The translations under genes and the position numbers were made by a program. Below are positions 3,791 through 12,158 of a stretch of DNA of 64,000 bases, piece after piece (the stretch's first letter is position 1; each line of letters starts with the position of its first letter). Source of the DNA: Rubripirellula tenax (GTDB lineage Bacteria; Planctomycetota; Planctomycetia; Pirellulales; Pirellulaceae); contig NZ_SJPW01000008.1 of assembly GCF_007860125.1 (NCBI RefSeq), positions 285,553 to 349,552 of the forward strand. The letters are read 5' to 3'. The notes beneath the pieces were generated by a model, which was given only the letters and a program-made list of their open reading frames with translations, made no database searches and was not told the origin of the DNA.

Positions 3791-3802
3791 TTGCAATTTG
3801 AT

Positions 3803-4936
3803 ATGAACTATCCAAGGATTTCTCCTATCCACAAACCACTTCCATCCGGTCACCGTCGCTCGTTCGGATTCACGTTGGTGGAGTTGCTGGTCGTGATCGC
3901 TATCATCGGCGTCCTCGTCGGAATGTTGCTTCCCGCCGTCCAAGCGGCGCGCGAGTCAGCGCGGCGAATGAGTTGCAGTAACAACTTCAAACAGATTGGG
4001 CTGGCGCTTCACAACTATGAATCTGCCTTCAAGACACTTCCTCCGGCCGGAACGCTTGATGCAGACTTTTCGGTTCAAGCCCGCATCCTGCCGTACATCG
4101 AGCAGTCTGGGTTGAACGACCAACTCAGCTTCAACGTGCCTGCGTTCAGCGGCAATTGGGCCGGAAAAGTACCGCATCCCGCAAACGCCGCGGCGTTTGC
4201 GAATGCAGTAGGAACTTATCTATGCCCCAGCGATCCCGCGGCGGCAACAACAACCGTCACGGTGTCGGGCAACGATTACACGTACGGTGGAAACAACTAC
4301 CTGGCCAGTTTCGGCAGCAACCGAAAACAAAACTATGATTTCCGTTGGAAGACGGACGGCATGTTTTTCTCGCCGCACGGCGTCAAGTTCAATCACGTTC
4401 TCGACGGCCTTTCCAATACGGTGATCATGAGCGAGACAGTACGCAGCGAAGGCGGCGACCAAACATTGCCAACCGGTCAACTTCCGCGAAGACCGTACAC
4501 CATGACGTTGAACGGGTCATCGGGTGTCAGCCCGGCATTGCAAACGAAGCAGGGCATGTCGGCGGGCGGCGTTTGGGCGGCGTATTTGAACGCCGACGGG
4601 TTGATCGAAAACCCCGACGTCGCCGCGATTTGGAACACGTTTTCGAATTGGCGTGGTGGATCGAGCCCCGCGATTCGTGGCCGGGGAATGAGCTGGGCAT
4701 TTACGGGCGCAATCAACTCGATGACCAACGGCTACCTGTCACCTAACAGTCCCACGCCCGACATTGTCACGCATTGGACCGGATACTTCGCGCCACGCAG
4801 CTATCACACCGGTGGCGCACTATTGCTGTTTGCCGACGGATCGGTCCACTTCCTAAGCGACAGCACGGATACCGAACTGCATCGTGACTTGCACAGCGCC
4901 AACGGTCACGAAGTGATTCAGGGTTTCGCACCATGA
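3803..4936 (+). CDS. DUF1559 pilin-like protein
   Basis: 377 residues. After a 25-residue basic leader comes the prepilin cleavage/N-methylation motif (GFTLVELLVVIAIIG) and hydrophobic helix, then the DUF1559 domain (VQAARESARRMSC, ALHNYES) and the terminal H-X9-DG motif (HTGGALLLFADG). The ATG at 3803 is preferred; a TTG at 3791 immediately follows the stop of the upstream small ORF. The stop overlaps the PepSY start as ATGA (4933-4936), so the two are probably translationally coupled. As in other members, the exported C-terminal domain has no known catalytic residues. The link to a PepSY-TM protein and a cysteine-rich protein suggests a dedicated envelope assembly, not a general pilus subunit. 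Confidence 0.92.
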   Translation: MNYPRISPIHKPLPSGHRRSFGFTLVELLVVIAIIGVLVGMLLPAVQAARESARRMSCSNNFKQIGLALHNYESAFKTLPPAGTLDADFSVQARILPYIEQSGLNDQLSFNVPAFSGNWAGKVPHPANAAAFANAVGTYLCPSDPAAATTTVTVSGNDYTYGGNNYLASFGSNRKQNYDFRWKTDGMFFSPHGVKFNHVLDGLSNTVIMSETVRSEGGDQTLPTGQLPRRPYTMTLNGSSGVSPALQTKQGMSAGGVWAAYLNADGLIENPDVAAIWNTFSNWRGGSSPAIRGRGMSWAFTGAINSMTNGYLSPNSPTPDIVTHWTGYFAPRSYHTGGALLLFADGSVHFLSDSTDTELHRDLHSANGHEVIQGFAP

Positions 4937-6375
4937 ACGATTCACCCTCTACCCAATCGAAACCAAGTGGTCGTCGGCAATGGCCCGACTATGCGTCGGT
5001 TTGGCGCTGGCATTTTTACGCAGGAGTGTTTTGCATTCCGTTCGTGATCGTGCTATCGATCAGCGGAACCATTTACCTGTATCGGCCTCAGATCGAGGCG
5101 TGGCAAGAAAGACACTACGACCAATTGCCCGTGGACGGACGATCGCCCATATCGCTGATGCGTCAAGTTGAATCTGCCGTCGCGAGCGTGGATGGCGGTC
5201 GATTCGTTTTGGCAGAACGCCCCCACGCCTTCGATGACTCCGACCCTACGACATCGGCTACACGAGTGATCGTCGATCGCGGAGGTGATCGATTGCGAAT
5301 TTTTGTCCACCCCATCGACGGATCGGTCTTGGGAACCGTCGAAGAGGATCAGCGGTTCGTCCGTGTCGTGCGGCGCATTCACGGTGAACTCTTGCTGGGA
5401 AAGCGAGGCTCGTATCTGGTCGAACTTGCGGCAAGCTGGACGATCGTGATGGTGTTGACAGGACTGGTGCTATGGTTGCCGCGCAAGTTCCAGCTTGCCG
5501 GAGTGGTCTATCCACGATGGAACGCCAAGGGGAAATCGTTTTGGAAAGACATCCACAGCGTTGGCGGTCTGTGGGCGTCCGGACTGATTGTGTTCTTAGT
5601 CGCAACCGGGTTGCCTTGGTCACTTTTCTGGGGCGACTATTTTAAGTCGATCCGCAAGGTGACGGGTACGACGCACGCCAGTTCGCATTGGGACAACGGA
5701 TCACCGAAGGGCGAACATGCCAATCACGAGGAGAAACGTCCGGCCCGATCGGGTTCTCCGCCTTGGAGAAGCCCTATACCCGATCCATCCACATTCCATT
5801 TATCGCAAATCGATCGCGTGGCCCCGTTTGCACAGTCATTGAATTGGTTGCCGCCCATCACCCTTGCACCGCCCAGCAACGGCGGTTCGATTTGGACAAT
5901 CAAATCGGAAACCGCGAATCGGCCGCACCAGCAGACGTTGCGATATGATGCCGAATCGCAAGAGCCGGTCGGTGTCGAAACGTTTGCGGACAGGCATTGG
6001 GTTGATCGTGTCGTTGGTCAAGGAATTGCCCTGCACGAAGGACAACGATTCGGCCTTGCCAATCAATTGATCGCATCGGCCGTGACCGGAATGCTGTTGA
6101 TTCTGTCGGTTACGGGGATCGTCCTTTGGTGGCGTCGGCGCGATTCGTTTGGGCTCTCGCCGCCCGCGTCGATTTCTCGACACGGCAGGATCACCGATCG
6201 CATCAGTCGCGGACGCTGCATCGGACTGGGGTTAGCAGTCATCGGACTGACGATCTACTTACCGCTATTCGGGCTTTCGCTGGTGGTGGTTTTGCTGCTC
6301 GATGGGTTGGTCTTCACCAGGTTCACGCCCCTAGCGATCTGGTTGGGGCGCCGATGTGCCGCCGTTGGACCGTGA
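4933..6375 (+). CDS. PepSY-associated TM helix protein
   Basis: 480 residues, a polytopic inner-membrane protein. The N-terminal helix (about 25-50) carries the family hallmark W-R-W-H-F-Y-A-G. Further membrane segments lie near residues 165-185 (SWTIVMVLTGLVLW), 205-228, 385-405 (VTGMLLILSVTGIVLWWRRR) and the C-terminus. Two periplasmic PepSY-like regions lie between them, around 55-150 and 250-370. PepSY-TM proteins are often found with iron or siderophore uptake genes and some are reductases; no TonB receptor is seen here. The middle loop contains a His/Glu-rich piece (HANHEEKRP). The gene starts inside the stop codon of the DUF1559 gene (ATGA), so it belongs to the same operon. Role inferred: redox or metal-related membrane step. 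Confidence 0.88.
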   Translation: MNDSPSTQSKPSGRRQWPDYASVWRWHFYAGVFCIPFVIVLSISGTIYLYRPQIEAWQERHYDQLPVDGRSPISLMRQVESAVASVDGGRFVLAERPHAFDDSDPTTSATRVIVDRGGDRLRIFVHPIDGSVLGTVEEDQRFVRVVRRIHGELLLGKRGSYLVELAASWTIVMVLTGLVLWLPRKFQLAGVVYPRWNAKGKSFWKDIHSVGGLWASGLIVFLVATGLPWSLFWGDYFKSIRKVTGTTHASSHWDNGSPKGEHANHEEKRPARSGSPPWRSPIPDPSTFHLSQIDRVAPFAQSLNWLPPITLAPPSNGGSIWTIKSETANRPHQQTLRYDAESQEPVGVETFADRHWVDRVVGQGIALHEGQRFGLANQLIASAVTGMLLILSVTGIVLWWRRRDSFGLSPPASISRHGRITDRISRGRCIGLGLAVIGLTIYLPLFGLSLVVVLLLDGLVFTRFTPLAIWLGRRCAAVGP

Positions 6376-6725
6376 AAACAACGGCGATCCATTGAAAACG
6401 CCGCTGCTGAACTAACATGTACCGGAACAGCCGACCACGCTGAAAATGCCGCGAAAGAAGGGAGTTCCGTAGTGACCGTTGCGCCGTCTGCCGACCGACG
6501 GTGCGGGTTTGTGAATGACCGATACGTTTACCCGTACGATACGGGTATAACTAAAGGAAGTATTCAAGCGTCTTGATCCCCGTGGGGCATCTTGACGCGG
6601 GACACGATGACGATGGGAATGCAACGTGTGGCGGAGCAGACGGAGACGTCACAGTCCTTTCTGTTGCGACGCTTGTTCGAGTTACACGATTGCAAATGAC
6701 CTCAGGAGGATCGAGATAATTCATC
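6376..6725. other. Intergenic region before the kinase gene
   Basis: About 350 bases without a convincing gene. It contains one strong symmetric site (6529-6547, listed separately) and a purine-rich AGGAGGA at 6704-6710, 15 bases before the kinase ATG, which is far for a ribosome site. No terminator for the PepSY gene is clear. Confidence 0.5.
6529..6547. promoter_or_regulatory. Palindromic site, possible operator
   Basis: TACCCGTA and TACGGGTA form a perfect 8-base inverted repeat around CGA. The heptamer CGATACG also occurs twice as a direct repeat (6520-6526 and 6537-6543), so two half-patterns overlap. The short spacer and dyad symmetry fit binding by a dimeric regulator better than a terminator, since no T-run follows. 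It lies 179 bases upstream of the kinase gene and 153 bases after the PepSY gene. The regulator is unknown. Confidence 0.4.
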
Positions 6726-7736
6726 ATGCTTTCCATCTCCAGCACCGACATCCAGCTTCCTTCGCCGTTGCCAACGGGCCTCGATCGATACGCCGATCGG
6801 AAGGAAATGGCTCGCGGCGGCAATGGACTTCTCTATTCGGGGTTTGATCTGATCGTCGGACGGACGGTTGCGATCAAGATGTTGTTGCCCGAGCATCGTC
6901 TGGATCGCACGTTTCGCCGGCGACTGCTTCGCGAAGCACGCGTCACGGCCCAATTGCAACACCCCGGTACGGTGCCGGTGTACGAAATCGGTGAAGACGA
7001 CGAGTGCGGCATCTACTACACGATGAAGCGGATTTCGGGCGAAAATTTCTTCAACGTACTGCGGTCCATCGCAAAGGGCGACGAGGAAGTGTTGCGGGCT
7101 TTTCCGCTGTATCGACGGATCGAGATCATTCAAGACGTTTGCCAAACGCTCGCCTCGGCGCATGTAAGCGGCGTGATTCACCGTGACGTAAAGCCTGAAA
7201 ATATTTGGGTTGGAAATTTTGGTGAAGTCACATTGCTGGATTGGGGCACGGCAAAGGTTTGGGGCGAATCGATGCCGTTCATGACCGAGCCCGAAGGCCA
7301 GCGTCGCAACGTGATTCGCGACTCGGCTTCGGACGACAGCGTCGTCCACCAAACGGGCGACTACGATCTGCCGCCGTTGACACCGGCCGAGAAAATGGTC
7401 GGGACCCCGACCTACATGTCGCCCGAGCAAATCGGAAACCGCGACATCGACGATCGCAGCGACATTTTTTCCGTGGGAATTTGCCTGTACGAAGCGATGG
7501 CGATTGCGGAACCATTTCGAGGGGCCGATCGCGACGAAACGTTCGACAACATCTGTTCGCGTCAACCGACACCTCCGAGCGAGCGATCCCCGACGCGAGG
7601 GATCCCGGAATTGGCCGATGATATTTTTGCCAAAGCGACTAGCAAGCAGCCGTCCCGTCGACAACAAACCATGCGTGAGTTAATTGCCGATTTAGATAAG
7701 CTCTTGCAAGTGGTTGGTCAGTCGCCCGACCCGTAG
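6726..7736 (+). CDS. Soluble Ser/Thr protein kinase (Hanks type)
   Basis: 336 residues, almost entirely kinase domain. Seen are a glycine-rich loop (MARGGNGLLYSG, about 28-39), VAIK with K51, a Glu at 70 for the alpha-C helix, the catalytic HRDVKPEN (152-159) and an MSPEQ that replaces APE. The metal-binding DFG is DWG (172-174), which still keeps the essential Asp. There is a long insertion in the activation region (about 180-225). No transmembrane helix or sensor domain follows, unlike PknB types, so it should be cytoplasmic. It is followed after 189 bases by an ECF sigma factor gene. Kinase/ECF sigma linkage is a recurrent planctomycete theme, so the kinase may control that sigma factor by phosphorylation; this is inference. 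Confidence 0.92.
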   Translation: MLSISSTDIQLPSPLPTGLDRYADRKEMARGGNGLLYSGFDLIVGRTVAIKMLLPEHRLDRTFRRRLLREARVTAQLQHPGTVPVYEIGEDDECGIYYTMKRISGENFFNVLRSIAKGDEEVLRAFPLYRRIEIIQDVCQTLASAHVSGVIHRDVKPENIWVGNFGEVTLLDWGTAKVWGESMPFMTEPEGQRRNVIRDSASDDSVVHQTGDYDLPPLTPAEKMVGTPTYMSPEQIGNRDIDDRSDIFSVGICLYEAMAIAEPFRGADRDETFDNICSRQPTPPSERSPTRGIPELADDIFAKATSKQPSRRQQTMRELIADLDKLLQVVGQSPDP

Positions 7737-7925
7737 CGATCCCGAACTCCCTGCGTTGATCGTATTCGCGTGCTAGCGAGGCGATCGCCGCGGCGGCCTT
7801 TTCCTTTTCCAGCTTTTTCGGAAATACGCTGGGATGTCGATCGCTCGACGGCATCCTTGAATGTGACGACCTTGATTGGGACGGAACAGTGAAGCCATGG
7901 GCGACCATGCGGAAACTCGGCACGC

Positions 7926-8468
7926 GTGACTGGAGACGCATCGAACGTGATCGACGCGGCAGATCTATCGCAACTTTGGAACGATCACGCGAGCCGTTTG
8001 CTGCTGATAGCGCGGTCGATGGGTGATGCTCGCGGTGTGTCACTTGCCGACGATGCGGTGCAGGAAGCGTTCATCGCCTTGGCGTTGCAACCAAAGTTGC
8101 CCGACGATCCGTTCGCTTGGATGGTACGCGTCGTACGGAACCAGATTCTGAGTTGGCACCGATCGGGTGGTCGCCGAAAGAATCGCGAGTCCATGCTCGC
8201 GAAATGCGACTGGTTTCAAACGGACGTCGCTGCCGGCATCGACGCCGACGAAGTGACACAACGATTGATGCACTTAAACTCGCCAACTCGCGAGGTGATC
8301 GTGATGCACGTTTGGGGCGAAATGACTTTCGATGCCATCGCCGAGGTACTTCAAATTTCGCGGTCCAGCGCCCATCGCCAGTTCACCCAAGGCATTGATT
8401 CGCTGCGACAACAACTTGCCCCGCCCGACCTGGCTACGGAAGTATCCCATTCCGAGAGATCATCATGA
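7926..8468 (+). CDS. ECF-family RNA polymerase sigma factor
   Basis: 180 residues. Region 2 spans about 18-85, with the core-binding helix DDAVQEAFIAL and the WMVRVVRNQILSWHRS helix for -10 recognition. Region 4 is about 118-165 (TREVIVMHVWGEMTFDAIAEVL followed by the recognition helix ISRSSAHRQFTQG). Region 3 is missing, as expected for ECF factors. The start is a GTG at 7926; no strong ribosome site supports it, so the exact N-terminus is uncertain. The stop overlaps the next gene as ATGA, and three further genes follow with the same overlaps. That arrangement makes it likely that the sigma factor governs its own operon. Confidence 0.92.
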   Translation: MTGDASNVIDAADLSQLWNDHASRLLLIARSMGDARGVSLADDAVQEAFIALALQPKLPDDPFAWMVRVVRNQILSWHRSGGRRKNRESMLAKCDWFQTDVAAGIDADEVTQRLMHLNSPTREVIVMHVWGEMTFDAIAEVLQISRSSAHRQFTQGIDSLRQQLAPPDLATEVSHSERSS

Positions 8469-9016
8469 ACGACAACGACAACCAGACGTGGGTCGAGAAT
8501 CTGCGACGATTGCAACCGACGCCTATCGAGTCACCAAACGAAACGATGTTTCGAATCGGTTACGCGACCGCGCAGCGTGAAGTCAGTCACGAGCGTCGCA
8601 GTTTTCCGATTCGCGGTTGGATGATTGCCGCGTCTTTGGTCGCTTGCACCGCCGGTCCGCTCGGTTACTGGACGATTCAACTGCGACGCGAATTGAGACA
8701 CTTGACCAACGTTGCATTGCCGAAGGCGACGTCTAAGCAGGAACCAACGATCGGGATTGCTGCCCGAGCCCGCCAAAACCCTCTTCCGATGAAACCAACT
8801 CGCGTCTTCGTCGACCCCTCGTTGCCCGACGACATGCTTGTCGCCTTTCATCGGTCGATTGAAATCAACGAAGACGGCAGCCTTCCGATGATGGACCGTT
8901 GGACTGGGTTTCAGCAGGCTTCGCGAAGCCAGCACAGCGACTCCGCCGCACAACCGTCGACGCTATCCGTTCGCGACTTGCATACAATGACCCACGCATT
9001 GGAGACCCGACGATGA
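8465..9016 (+). CDS. Single-pass membrane protein in the anti-sigma position
   Basis: 183 residues. A short charged cytoplasmic N-terminus (about 1-48) is followed by one membrane helix (about 51-70, GWMIAASLVACTAGPLGYW) and a periplasmic tail. Topology, size and overlap with the sigma gene (ATGA) are what an ECF anti-sigma factor would show. However, the H-x3-C-x2-C zinc motif of the common ZAS anti-sigma domain is missing and no named domain is recognised. It overlaps the following gene as well. Anti-sigma function is inference from context. Confidence 0.72.
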   Translation: MNDNDNQTWVENLRRLQPTPIESPNETMFRIGYATAQREVSHERRSFPIRGWMIAASLVACTAGPLGYWTIQLRRELRHLTNVALPKATSKQEPTIGIAARARQNPLPMKPTRVFVDPSLPDDMLVAFHRSIEINEDGSLPMMDRWTGFQQASRSQHSDSAAQPSTLSVRDLHTMTHALETRR

Positions 9017-10479
9017 AAAACGTCTTTTCGTTACGAGCCATCGGGTCGTTTTGGATCGTGGCATTGGCGTCTACGGCGCCGATGACCTGGGCCGACGACG
9101 GCGCGGCGCCGCGAACCGTCTCGATCGCACCGATGGCTGCCCCCGATCCCATGCTTCGCTATCGCTTTTGGCCTGCTGCCGAACATCGCCAGGACCGCGA
9201 TCCAATGCCGGGTGTTTTGCGGGCGTTGATCCTGATGCATTCCGCGGTTGCGAACGCCGCGGACGACGAACCGAACGAATATGAGCAGCATTTTCAATGG
9301 AATGAACTGCCGCTCGACCAGCTTCCCGTCGACGACGTGCATCGCTCGCTCGACCGATTCAATACATCGATCAACGAATTGATGCGAATCGAGAATGCGA
9401 TGAAGATTCATTACGACCTTGGCGTCGAAGCGTTGTCGGTGAACGAGACGATCGGGCTTCTGTTGCCTGAATTTCAAGACATGCGGATGCTTTGCCGGAT
9501 CTTGGAACTAAAAGCTCGGCTGGCAATATTGGAACATCGCTACGACGAAGCGATCGAAACCGTGCGCATCGGATTCAGATTGTCGGAAGTCGCGTCGCAA
9601 AGCACGCCATTTTTGGTCGGGCGACTGATTGGAATCGCGATCGCCGAAAGAATGCTGCAAGTCGTCGAGGCCGCCGTGGTGCAGCCCGACTTCCCCAACG
9701 TCTATTGGGCGCTGGCGGCGCTGCCCAGCGAAAGACTGTTCGAAGTACGTCAGGCGATCGAGTTCGAATCGACGCTGCTGACAAAAATGTTACCCGGTGC
9801 GCCCGACATGTCGTCACCAACAATCGGTCAAGACGCGGCAGCTTCGCAACTTCTCGATTTGGCGGACCAAGCACACGGCGTCCTCGTCGGAACGACGTCT
9901 TCACCAGACGATGATCATCGCGCTGCAATGCTGATGATGGGAATGTACGTCGCGATGATGGCGGAACCGTCTCGGGATGGGCTGCAATCCACAGACGTTT
10001 GGAAAAACCGTGCGGGTGAACTTTCGGATTGCGAAGCGGTGTTACGTTGGACGAGCCTTCGTTTGCGTCGCTTCCGAGACCAATGGGAAGCATGGCAGAC
10101 GCTCCCACCCGACGTGTTCGCCGCGTCTCAATCCCAGCGCTGGATGCTGGCCGATGATTCCGAATCGCGTGACTTGGCTGTCCGTGTAGCTCGTGAGCTG
10201 ACGCCGTCGTTTCAACAGTATCTATACAACTTGCGAGCATACCAGCATCGGTCTTGGTTGATGACCATCGAAGCAATTCGAATGCACGCGGACCAAACGG
10301 GCGAACTTCCGGCGACGCTAGAAAAACTTTCGCCGGTTCCGGCTTGGGACGACCCGATCGCGAGTGGACCGTTCGTGTACCAACGTACCGATGCCGAACA
10401 CGCCACGTTGACGAGGGCTAGCACCAGCGGCAACGACGTTGACTTGACGGTTCAACTTGTCTTGAAAGGAAAATCATGA
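9013..10479 (+). CDS. Exported protein of unknown function, ECF operon
   Basis: 488 residues from the ATG at 9013, which overlaps the previous stop and gives a good signal peptide (MKNVFSLRAIGSFWIVALASTAPMTWA reads as basic start, hydrophobic core and A-x-A-like end). The mature part is mostly helical, with a repeat-like segment of alternating Leu and Arg near 150-220. Near the C-terminus IEAIRMHADQTGELP...PVPAWDDPIA...FVYQ resembles a segment in many planctomycete exported proteins that looks like the C-terminal part of type II secretion pseudopilins. No catalytic motif is recognised. It shares ATGA overlaps on both sides, so it belongs to the sigma factor operon and may be a target or sensor of it. 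Confidence 0.75.
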   Translation: MKNVFSLRAIGSFWIVALASTAPMTWADDGAAPRTVSIAPMAAPDPMLRYRFWPAAEHRQDRDPMPGVLRALILMHSAVANAADDEPNEYEQHFQWNELPLDQLPVDDVHRSLDRFNTSINELMRIENAMKIHYDLGVEALSVNETIGLLLPEFQDMRMLCRILELKARLAILEHRYDEAIETVRIGFRLSEVASQSTPFLVGRLIGIAIAERMLQVVEAAVVQPDFPNVYWALAALPSERLFEVRQAIEFESTLLTKMLPGAPDMSSPTIGQDAAASQLLDLADQAHGVLVGTTSSPDDDHRAAMLMMGMYVAMMAEPSRDGLQSTDVWKNRAGELSDCEAVLRWTSLRLRRFRDQWEAWQTLPPDVFAASQSQRWMLADDSESRDLAVRVARELTPSFQQYLYNLRAYQHRSWLMTIEAIRMHADQTGELPATLEKLSPVPAWDDPIASGPFVYQRTDAEHATLTRASTSGNDVDLTVQLVLKGKS

Positions 10480-11432
10480 TTTCGTTTCGTTTGCTCGGTT
10501 CGATACTTGCGTTGCTTCTGTTTTCCCCGGTAGAAGCCATGAGTCAATCGGTGCTTCATGTCGAAATACCGCCGGTCCTGATCAACGATGTAGCCCCCAC
10601 CGGTGTCAGACCTCACGCTATGACGCCCTATTTGGAATCGTCGTCATGCATCTTGATGGAGCTTGGGATCAAGGAACTAGATTTGGAAAGCGTTTCGCTT
10701 TGGATCGGCGAGCTCGGCGATGAAAGTCCGATATTGAAATCTCCATGGTTTGAAACCATTCGGCGGATCGCCAAAAAAATTGTCACCGAAGGTGGCAACC
10801 GGGCGTTCGTCGCTGCATCACCACGAATGTATCTTGAGGGCGCACCGCTGGTGATGATTCCGACATCGTCTCCTGCCGCGGCGAGTCGGCTTGCCAGTTC
10901 GATTGAATCTGTCCTGGATTCATCACCGTGGAAAATGCTCGTGCGTGTTCAGACAGATCACAAGTCGGTTTTGATCGGGACCGCTGAGACGATTGGGCGC
11001 GTGATGCAGCCGCGACCGGCCGGACGTGGGGACCTGTCATCACCGCTAACCAGCGCCGATGTGTTTCCTCATCGCGCCGTCATTTCGATTAGCGATGCGA
11101 CTCGCGGAAACTTGGTTGCACTGTGGCCAGATACGCTGCCCGGTCGCTGGGGTGTGGACCTGAACCCGAAGCAAACAATGGTCGATGTCATACGAATGAC
11201 TCTATCGATGCGATTAACGCCGAAGCTTGACGCCAGCTTGAAACTCGAGACCCCGGATCTGGCCGCGATGGAGCGGACGCAGGAAGCCGTTACCCGATGG
11301 ATTTCTTCAAGATCTGGCTGTGATGGAGTGACGGTCGCTGATGAAGGAACCGAACTTACTGTGTCGCTGCCAGAATCGTTTTTCGCCGAAATCTTGAAAA
11401 GCAAGAAATTCCAAGCTCAAACGCCCGACTGA
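10476..11432 (+). CDS. Exported protein of unknown function, last gene of ECF operon
   Basis: 318 residues with a clear signal peptide (MISFRLLGSILALLLFSPVEA). The rest has a mixed alpha/beta look without cysteine clusters or known motifs. Its start overlaps the stop of the preceding exported protein (ATGA). The pair of periplasmic or surface proteins behind a sigma factor and membrane protein suggests the operon monitors or builds something at the envelope. I do not recognise the family. Confidence 0.72.
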   Translation: MISFRLLGSILALLLFSPVEAMSQSVLHVEIPPVLINDVAPTGVRPHAMTPYLESSSCILMELGIKELDLESVSLWIGELGDESPILKSPWFETIRRIAKKIVTEGGNRAFVAASPRMYLEGAPLVMIPTSSPAAASRLASSIESVLDSSPWKMLVRVQTDHKSVLIGTAETIGRVMQPRPAGRGDLSSPLTSADVFPHRAVISISDATRGNLVALWPDTLPGRWGVDLNPKQTMVDVIRMTLSMRLTPKLDASLKLETPDLAAMERTQEAVTRWISSRSGCDGVTVADEGTELTVSLPESFFAEILKSKKFQAQTPD

Positions 11433-11594: not shown

Positions 11595-12158
11595 ATGGGA
11601 TTTACGATTCAGTACTGTTCGACCGAGGCGATGCATCCGGCCCAGGCGTTCGAGATCAAGCAGGACGCAAGCATTTTGAGCAGCGGATTCACGTGGCTGA
11701 GTTGTGAACCGGTCATTTTGAATCAAAAGTCGGACGGCCGGTTGGCGGGTGCCAGCAAACCGAACTTCTTTGCCGATCCGCCCCCAAGCGATGATACGAA
11801 TGCCGAGGGACTTCCCGATGGCAACGTTTTGACCATGACCGACGTCCTTTGCGAACTGTCGCGCCGGCACAAAATCAATTGGAAGATCGGCCACGATTAT
11901 GAACAGGACCCCATCGGCGAAATCCGTGCCGGTGTCATCGACCCGGACCTTCTAGAACAACTGGAAGCATTCGGATCGATCGGCGAGTTGCTCGACAGCA
12001 TGGCGGACGATGACGAGGAAGAAGACGATCTTGCATTGAGGGCGAGTAGGCTCTCGTTTCTTGCTGATCAAGACAACGTCAACAAAGGCAAAGTCGACGA
12101 AGACCAAGCGGATGATGACGATGAACCTCGCTTGTTGAAGTTTCCCGGACGAGACTGA
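11595..12158 (+). CDS. Hypothetical acidic protein
   Basis: 187 residues with no signal peptide or membrane helix. The N-terminal half is an ordinary globular sequence (MGFTIQYCSTEAMHPAQAFEI...SCEPVIL). The C-terminal third is very acidic (DSMADDDEEEDDL, then EDQADDDDEPRLL) and probably disordered. A purine run GGGAAACGG lies just before the ATG. It stands alone between the ECF operon and the ABC exporter, in the same direction. The N-terminal start MGFTIQY...A is shared by many small planctomycete proteins as far as I recall; no function can be given. Confidence 0.65.
   Translation: MGFTIQYCSTEAMHPAQAFEIKQDASILSSGFTWLSCEPVILNQKSDGRLAGASKPNFFADPPPSDDTNAEGLPDGNVLTMTDVLCELSRRHKINWKIGHDYEQDPIGEIRAGVIDPDLLEQLEAFGSIGELLDSMADDDEEEDDLALRASRLSFLADQDNVNKGKVDEDQADDDDEPRLLKFPGRD

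Follow-up and report, generated by a model that had tools for sequence, protein, structure and literature searches.

A planctomycete ECF sigma factor cassette with a predicted transmembrane anti-sigma factor and two exported partners

Planctomycetes encode many ECF sigma factors, and for a good part of these the regulators are unknown. The question of what controls such a factor is raised by a 64,000-nucleotide stretch of the Rubripirellula tenax genome (contig NZ_SJPW01000008.1; the whole stretch is called the window, and positions are counted from its first letter), in which the gene for an ECF sigma factor stands between a kinase gene and the gene for a membrane protein, here called the slot protein. 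An earlier note on this DNA described a soluble kinase followed by a four-gene chain at 7926–11432 linked by ATGA overlaps, and both the coordinates and the three overlaps that join the four genes (8465–8468, 9013–9016 and 10476–10479) were confirmed. The features of the locus are as follows, the signal peptides of P4 and P5 having been judged by eye.

6726–7736, + strand: Ser/Thr protein kinase without a transmembrane segment, 336 residues (PF00069, E 1.5e-33).
7830–7858, + strand: predicted promoter of the sigma operon, TGGGA (7830–7834), 17 bases, CATCCTT (7852–7858), from a dyad and a weight matrix.
7926–8468, + strand: ECF sigma factor (P0002) with a GTG start; PF04542, PF08281 and TIGR02937 above cut-off.
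8465–9016, + strand: slot protein (P0003) with one transmembrane segment, 183 residues, a predicted anti-sigma factor from its motif family and a zf-HC2 swap.
9013–10479, + strand: P4 (P0004), predicted exported, mostly helical, 488 residues, a conserved partner in the cassette.
10476–11432, + strand: P5 (P0005), predicted exported, 318 residues, corresponding to the N-terminal part (P5N) of a P5N-DUF1559 protein and lacking DUF1559.

We consider it likely that the locus is a planctomycete ECF sigma factor/transmembrane anti-sigma factor cassette that works as a switch, with the kinase a separate gene.

The window sigma factor is an ECF factor by the test of its regions, having sigma-2 and sigma-4 only and the acidic pair of region 2.2. 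It scores 58.3 bits against TIGR02937 (cut-off 42.9) and also exceeds the cut-offs of PF04542 and PF08281, and the sigma profile matched CnrH in the PDB as the third of 19 matches (E 2.6e-10). Translation could equally well start at the GTG at 7947, since the relatives at loci L093 and L100 begin there. ECF43 factors are missing the acidic pair and have Ser/Thr in its place. Across 89 sigma factors of the cassette (four of 93 ORFs being excluded for length), the second position is Asp in all 89, while the first is acidic in 77 and Thr in one. Neither the Ser/Thr replacement of the acidic motif nor the conserved Ser/Thr kinase linkage of ECF43 was found for this sigma factor, and the retained pair suggests that it should bind core polymerase without phosphorylation.

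The kinase gene lies 189 bases upstream of the sigma gene on the same strand, and the mean hydropathy of its product stays at or below 1.24 in every 19-residue stretch. Such proximity would suit a scheme in which the kinase phosphorylates and controls the sigma factor, as in ECF43 and EcfP, leaving the membrane protein as a mere anchor. The window sigma factor is not assigned to any ECF group, and the groups tabulated as phosphorylation-regulated in PMC8999054, as excerpted, include ECF59, 61, 62 and 217, with planctomycete examples among them. However, just two of 75 comparable loci have a kinase in the 3 kb upstream, L112 being the one other locus with a kinase in that position, and the closest kinase homologues (60–76% identity) are distant from the sigma gene in all four checked relatives with both genes (G034, G011, G002 and G032); a fifth relative, G018, has a kinase homologue and no cassette match. 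Because of these unlinked homologues, the rarity of the pairing and the promoter-like site between the two genes, the kinase is most likely a separate neighbour outside the cassette. With the acidic pair also retained, phosphorylation by this kinase is a very improbable mode of control. The locus resembles ECF43 and other STPK-linked ECF groups in that a Ser/Thr kinase adjoins the sigma gene in the window genome, but differs from them in that the kinase is not conserved, the acidic pair is intact and a candidate anti-sigma factor is present. The suggestion in the earlier note that control may run through the kinase was therefore not borne out: the kinases, whose linkage to the sigma gene among orthologues formed one half of the test it had put forward, were found unlinked in the relatives checked.

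The gene order of the remainder was observed directly: a unit of sigma factor, protein with one transmembrane segment and P4, often then P5, recurs in several planctomycete classes among 121 loci examined (114 non-redundant). Of the 93 loci that extend 2.5 kb or more upstream of P4, 84 have the sigma gene directly before it, a count that replaces a looser 93 of 102 admitting sigma loci with little upstream sequence. The arrangement goes beyond chance, with the qualification that the kinase has no conserved place in it. A candidate slot ORF is present at 92 of 93 sigma loci, and 85 start between 60 bases before and 9 bases after the sigma stop, as located by a script that favoured starts close to that stop. 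In 75 of 104 loci P5N, the N-terminal domain of P5, comes next after P4. When 60 genomes were searched with a slot profile built with many of the loci it then found, the 26 best matches (E ≤ 5.4e-5) were all at P4 loci, 25 adjoining a sigma gene and the remaining one, in G001, at the edge of a contig. A P4 profile matched in 31 of 149 genomes sampled across the phylum, with at most 10 candidates scored per genome; four matches were near full length (E < 1e-100) and the others were mostly partial, at about residues 66–237, which may represent a wider helical family. P4 proper looks sparse outside the order to which the window belongs.

In the window slot protein the most hydrophobic stretch starts at residue 53, which would leave a cytoplasmic part of about residues 1–52 (41–94 residues precede the transmembrane segment across 88 slot proteins). 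It gave no Pfam or NCBIfam match, and HxxxCxxC is absent, in agreement with the earlier observation that the protein in the anti-sigma position lacks the zinc motif of ZAS factors. The family has an N-terminal motif, LxxLxP...DRDxLMYxAG, and one transmembrane segment, in a domain unknown to Pfam. Conservation of the motif was observed among 83 core slot proteins (strict form in 29, loose form in 73), and 75 of the 83 are more positively charged before the transmembrane segment than after it, as expected for an N-in orientation. The window motif is weakened (PNETMFRIG versus the consensus DRDxLMYxAG), and since the flanks of its transmembrane segment carry equal charge (+2 on each side), its topology rests on its relatives. 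The short cytoplasmic part, single transmembrane segment and absent zinc motif are class II features, the length being borderline with respect to the < 50 residues that PMC7406223, in excerpt, gives as a hint of class II. The slot profile gave nine listed matches among PDB sequences to E 10, none of them an anti-sigma factor, CnrY-type included. A hydrophobic ORF alone proves little, since the transmembrane threshold reached in 87 of 93 slots was also reached in 13 of 93 cases when the opposite strand was searched and in 52 of 93 inside P4, and a search with the single P0003 sequence returned mostly noise, with matches in 60 of 99 genomes at E ≤ 1. An ORF at L194 considered as a natural fusion of sigma factor and slot protein was rejected, as it looks like a frame change.

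The best evidence that the short slot domain is an anti-sigma domain comes from loci in which zf-HC2 and the sigma factor are swapped together, a co-swap observed directly. HxxxCxxC occurs in five of 88 slot proteins, and zf-HC2 exceeds the Pfam cut-off of 22.2 bits in two of the four scanned, L114 (24.0 bits) and L115 (29.4 bits). The sigma factors of these two loci belong to a clade remote from the rest (median tree distance 5.7, versus 3.5 for a typical member), and their P4 and P5N belong to the usual families. The tail of the L114 protein beyond the transmembrane segment scores 25.4 bits against the short-motif family's tail profile (none of 200 shuffles reached this score, the best being 9.3), and that of L203, which has HxxxCxxC in its N-terminal part, scores 20.8 bits (0 of 200 shuffles). 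Tail homology failed for L115, L119 and L166, where 7, 23 and 37 of 200 shuffles, respectively, reached the score. On balance we lean towards a reading in which the cassette is spread over several planctomycete classes, its miniature anti-sigma domain forms a new class, and the sigma factor and its matching anti-sigma domain can together give way to a zf-HC2 version with no change in the outer tail or the two exported partners. The slot protein might instead support the sigma factor as a positive partner or tether it to the membrane, since its inhibitory role is deduced and the motif is short and partly degenerate, but this is unlikely given that zf-HC2, a typical anti-sigma domain, fills the same slot beside the same exported partners. 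The slot protein, of an undescribed family, probably holds the sigma factor inactive; of the two controllers offered earlier, the kinase or a new anti-sigma fold, the motif, the coupling to sigma and the zf-HC2 swap favour an unrecognised anti-sigma domain.

The exported proteins had both been described as without recognised family, which holds for P4 (no family in Pfam or NCBIfam) but not fully for P5, whose relatives link it to DUF1559. The AlphaFold2 model of P4 is mostly helical (pLDDT 90.3, pTM 0.88); its best Foldseek match has E 0.24, and its best VIA-align match (Z 9.1) is to designed helical repeats, in a range that this program describes as usual for models of helical proteins. All five longer P5 relatives chosen for scanning end in DUF1559 (PF07596), and like these planctomycete proteins P5 appears to belong to a family in which P5N precedes DUF1559, but a Pfam scan found no PF07596 in the window copy; by sequence comparison, P5 is a DUF1559 protein that in the window has been cut back to its N-terminal domain. 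A first P5 profile drifted to DUF1559 pseudopilins, matching window ORFs at 1609–2628 and 3791–4936, and was discarded; the P5 counts given here come from a profile rebuilt from the N-terminal domain only. With VIA-align, TP0453 takes ranks 1–4 against P5N (Z 11.0, rmsd 4.1, 203 aligned; next Z 6.3), and Foldseek gave no match at E ≤ 0.001. In one version of the preferred explanation, P4 and P5 would be sensors rather than output of the switch, as CnrX, a periplasmic metal-binding domain protein, senses for CnrY (PMC4598750, in excerpt). Their conservation beside the anti-sigma tail suits this role, but P4 is kept without a sigma gene in nine of 93 loci, with P5 alongside in three, and the Foldseek and VIA-align searches of P4 and P5 found no fold in common with a known ECF sensor, so that we regard it as possible at somewhat less than even weight.

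The site at 7830–7858 is predicted to be the sigma operon's own ECF-type promoter. A conserved promoter-like sequence is observed at the cassette, the dyad TGGGA-N17-CGTC lying 5' of 13 of 91 sigma genes versus 0.07 expected. The window site (TGGGA-N17-CATC, 7830–7855) is the only TGRGA-N16-18-CRTC on the + strand of 6376–7990, and scores 13.3, above the 1% null threshold of 12.2, with a weight matrix derived from the same sequences it scored; 45 of 89 loci fall below the 5% threshold, including L114, L115, L119, L166 and L203. A search for further targets with TGRGA-N15-GGCRTCCTTG, a pattern partly drawn from the window itself, returned 44 forward and 26 reverse sites at up to two mismatches versus 15 in each direction with the reversed control; among the sites returned there was no second perfect site and neither one-mismatch site was promoter-like before a same-strand gene. 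Scans for generic sigma-70 promoters and for terminators did not rise above the level of shuffles.

In the mechanism we propose, the slot protein would span the inner membrane and expose its short N-terminal domain to the cytoplasm, where this domain would bind the sigma factor and keep it off RNA polymerase, much as CnrY does with CnrH. An envelope signal that acts on the outer tail, either directly or via the exported partners, may then release the sigma factor, which would transcribe its own operon from 7830–7858 and so yield more sigma factor, anti-sigma factor, P4 and P5.

Two short CnrY helices hold CnrH. The class II system CnrH-CnrY-CnrX of Cupriavidus metallidurans is similar in its ECF sigma factor, its anti-sigma factor with one transmembrane segment and a very short cytoplasmic part without zinc motif, and its partner outside the membrane. 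The present cassette differs in the lack of a PDB anti-sigma match to the slot profile among those listed, in a P4 without convincing PDB match, in a second exported protein and in phylum. ZAS/zf-HC2 anti-sigma factors occupy the same position in the gene order at L114 and L115, with the same tail in L114, whereas the window protein has no HxxxCxxC and a cytoplasmic part about half the class I mean for the anti-sigma domain (101 residues; PMC7406223, in excerpt). The cassette would be a novel variant of ECF sigma/anti-sigma signalling, its short slot domain working like CnrY. A literature search returned no title on this cassette; the ECF re-classification paper or the 2012 planctomycete survey might describe it.

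If this reading is correct, a candidate for the inhibitor domain can be named for the cassette, along with a promoter sequence and two exported partners, and the natural swap would mark the boundary between the sigma-reading and signal-reading halves of the anti-sigma factor, making the system a modular switch with a replaceable recognition half.

The earlier note described a kinase gene followed by four genes linked through ATGA overlaps, and all five genes and the three overlaps, which join the sigma factor, slot protein (the one-TM protein between sigma and P4), P4 and P5 genes, were confirmed on the forward strand of this 8 Mb genome. Among the five, Pfam and NCBIfam name just the kinase and the sigma factor; P4 and P5 are the first and second predicted exported proteins, and the cassette comprises sigma, slot protein, P4 and often P5.

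6726-7736, + strand: kinase (Pfam/NCBIfam match)
7830-7834, + strand: TGGGA of the predicted sigma-operon promoter, followed by N17 and CATCCTT (dyad/weight matrix)
7926-8468, + strand: sigma factor (Pfam/NCBIfam match)
8465-9016, + strand: slot protein, one TM (no Pfam/NCBIfam match)
9013-10479, + strand: P4, predicted exported (start resembles a signal peptide, judged by eye)
10476-11432, + strand: P5, predicted exported (start resembles a signal peptide, judged by eye)

Upstream, two DUF1559 proteins with N_methyl (pilin-type) starts are encoded on opposite strands (3791-4936 and 1609-2628), the former gene overlapping a PepSY_TM protein gene (4933-6375) via ATGA. Downstream, 11595-12158 encodes a protein of 187 aa that matches no Pfam family; locus L091 has a homologue of it (51% identity), likewise on the downstream side of the cassette, about 2.7 kb past P5.

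Of 99 genomes, 51 contained P4 homologues (E up to 0.001), this one included; the closest named matches are in Rhodopirellula, Stieleria and Rubripirellula, and many top-ranking sigma matches adjoin P4 homologues. The locus sample combined 40 P4 loci from these genomes with the window and with planctomycete loci from named records, of which the best 80 out of 101 were taken; the record titles point to Pirellulales, Isosphaeraceae, Gemmataceae, Phycisphaerae and Sedimentisphaerales, and most of these sequences are metagenome-assembled. This gave 121 loci, or 114 after removal of 7 duplicates. Where 2.5 kb or more of sequence precedes P4 (93 loci), sigma lies directly before it in 84; adding loci with shorter upstream sequence brings the loci with sigma to 93. 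P5N, the N-terminal domain of P5, comes after P4 in 75 of the 104 loci whose sequence extends 1.5 kb or more downstream. Of the loci with 2.5 kb or more before P4, nine have no sigma there (L094, L095, L165, L175, L190, L192, L197, L198 and L200), and P5N still follows P4 in L094, L095 and L197. The exported pair can stand alone, because L094 and L095, from the window's own genus, have P4-P5 with neither sigma nor slot protein.

The kinase is not conserved beside sigma. Among sigma loci whose upstream sequence reaches 3 kb or more, 2 of 75 have a same-strand kinase ending within 3 kb before sigma: the window and L112, where it is a different protein of 596 aa. In relatives, the proteins most similar to the window kinase occur in genomes G034 (76% identity), G021 (67%), G018 (66%), G032 (61%), and G011 and G002 (both 60%). 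The 16-17 kb around those in G034, G018, G032, G011 and G002 contain no other cassette or flank gene (E up to 1e-12). Four of these five genomes, G034, G032, G011 and G002, also carry the cassette, on a different contig or megabases away (about 2 Mb on one contig in G002), and G018 has a kinase homologue and no cassette match. The suggested kinase-sigma linkage is therefore not supported, and the kinase is most likely a local neighbour of the cassette.

A candidate slot ORF was present in 92 of the 93 sigma loci, and in 85 its start fell no more than 60 bases before or 9 bases after the sigma stop codon, a position that the script favoured. Excluding L103, L194, L167 and L199 (weak TM or distant start) left 88 slot proteins, with 41-94 residues before the TM. 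Five (L114, L115, L119, L166 and L203) contain HxxxCxxC. The N-terminal parts of the remaining 83 follow a common pattern, roughly (F)ExxLxxLxPxxxxxDRDxLMYxAG, which 29 fit strictly and 73 loosely; the window protein carries a degenerate form of it. Finding a hydrophobic ORF is not strong evidence on its own, since the TM threshold, reached in 87 of 93 slots, is also reached on the opposite strand (13/93) and inside P4 (52/93); the motif and profile carry the weight. In 60 genomes all 26 slot-profile matches with E up to 5.4e-5 fall at P4 loci, many of which had gone into building the profile; 25 are with a sigma gene and one (G001) is at a contig edge. Of eight weaker matches one is at a P4 locus (G034, C3) and the others are partial.

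The slot proteins of L114 and L115 score above the Pfam cut-off for zf-HC2, and the sigma factors of these two loci group in a distant clade; the L119 sigma is distant too, yet P4 and P5N in all three belong to the usual families. The common tail profile fits the slot tails of L114 (25.4 bits) and L203 (20.8 bits), scores reached by 0 of 200 shuffles in each case, and does not match those of L115, L119 and L166 (reached by 7, 23 and 37 of 200 shuffles). On the simplest reading of these sequences, the slot cytoplasmic domain would read sigma and be swapped along with it. Somewhat better than an even case can be made that a miniature anti-sigma domain and its sigma are exchangeable as a pair for a zf-HC2 version, with tail and exported partners unchanged. 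Separately, the slot proteins of L119, L166 and L203 carry an insertion resembling GHxFxCxxCG within the cytoplasmic part, which may mark a zinc- or redox-responsive variant; the usual sigma clade is kept in L166 and L203, not in L119.

Most of the sigma factors retain the acidic sigma-2.2 pair (the second Asp in 89/89, an acidic residue at the first position in 77/89), and the sigma should therefore be active unless restrained, unlike ECF43 (PMC8999054). The slot protein would be the natural restraint. Two short helices are enough in CnrY, according to PMC4598750 and PMC7406223, and CnrH, the sigma of CnrY, is among the better PDB matches of the cassette sigma profile. Once freed, sigma would turn on its own operon. 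An ECF sigma/transmembrane anti-sigma switch, with binding presumed, is a probable explanation of the cassette as a whole.

Without a prior pattern, TGGGA-N17-CGTC was the top dyad upstream of 91 sigma genes (13 loci versus 0.07 expected), and no dyad exceeded 6 loci in one shuffled set. With a weight matrix derived from this dyad and from the close relatives, and tuned on the same data, 44 of 89 loci exceeded the 5% null threshold and 28 the 1% threshold, or 31 and 15 of 76 without the 13 seed loci. The 45 loci below 5% include L114, L115 and L119, with distant sigma factors, but many loci with the usual sigma as well. The predicted window promoter is downstream of the kinase stop (7736), with no further site of this type on the + strand of 6376-7990; close relatives have GGCATCCTTG in common, with TGAGA. 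A whole-genome scan gave no second perfect site, and the cassette operon is therefore the only nameable sigma target.

That the exported proteins lack a recognised family holds for P4 and not fully for P5. The high-confidence P4 model (pLDDT 90.3, pTM 0.88) is helical with a small C-terminal beta part and has no convincing PDB match, and among 65 P4 members any given Pfam or NCBIfam family matches one at most. Residues ~66-237 (9208-9723) match parts of other proteins in planctomycete genomes without full-length P4, which suggests that this segment belongs to a wider helical family. The window P5 represents the N-terminal domain of an exported protein that is longer in relatives; all five longer relatives scanned have DUF1559 (PF07596) at the C-terminal end. 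Ten of 78 P5 proteins after P4, the window copy included, are below 380 residues, in at least L040 and L156 because the contigs end there. In L091, a locus from the same genus, DUF1559 starts at the point where P5 of the window and of L093 stop, so part of the genus has apparently lost the domain. The P5 model (pLDDT 86.6, pTM 0.81) resembles Treponema TP0453 in a VIA-align comparison, where four TP0453 entries took ranks 1-4 (the best with Z 11.0 and rmsd 4.1 over 203 aligned residues) and the row after them had Z 6.3, although Foldseek returned no match with an E-value of 0.001 or less. TP0453 binds lipids and is associated with the outer membrane; the likeness of the P5 model to it is a lead only.

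Because P4 survives without sigma in nine loci, we lean towards P4 and P5 carrying out the response rather than sensing the signal. Literature searches turned up no paper on the cassette, though ECF classification work may still mention the sigma group. As far as this search reached, the cassette is a previously undescribed form of known ECF sigma/anti-sigma signalling.
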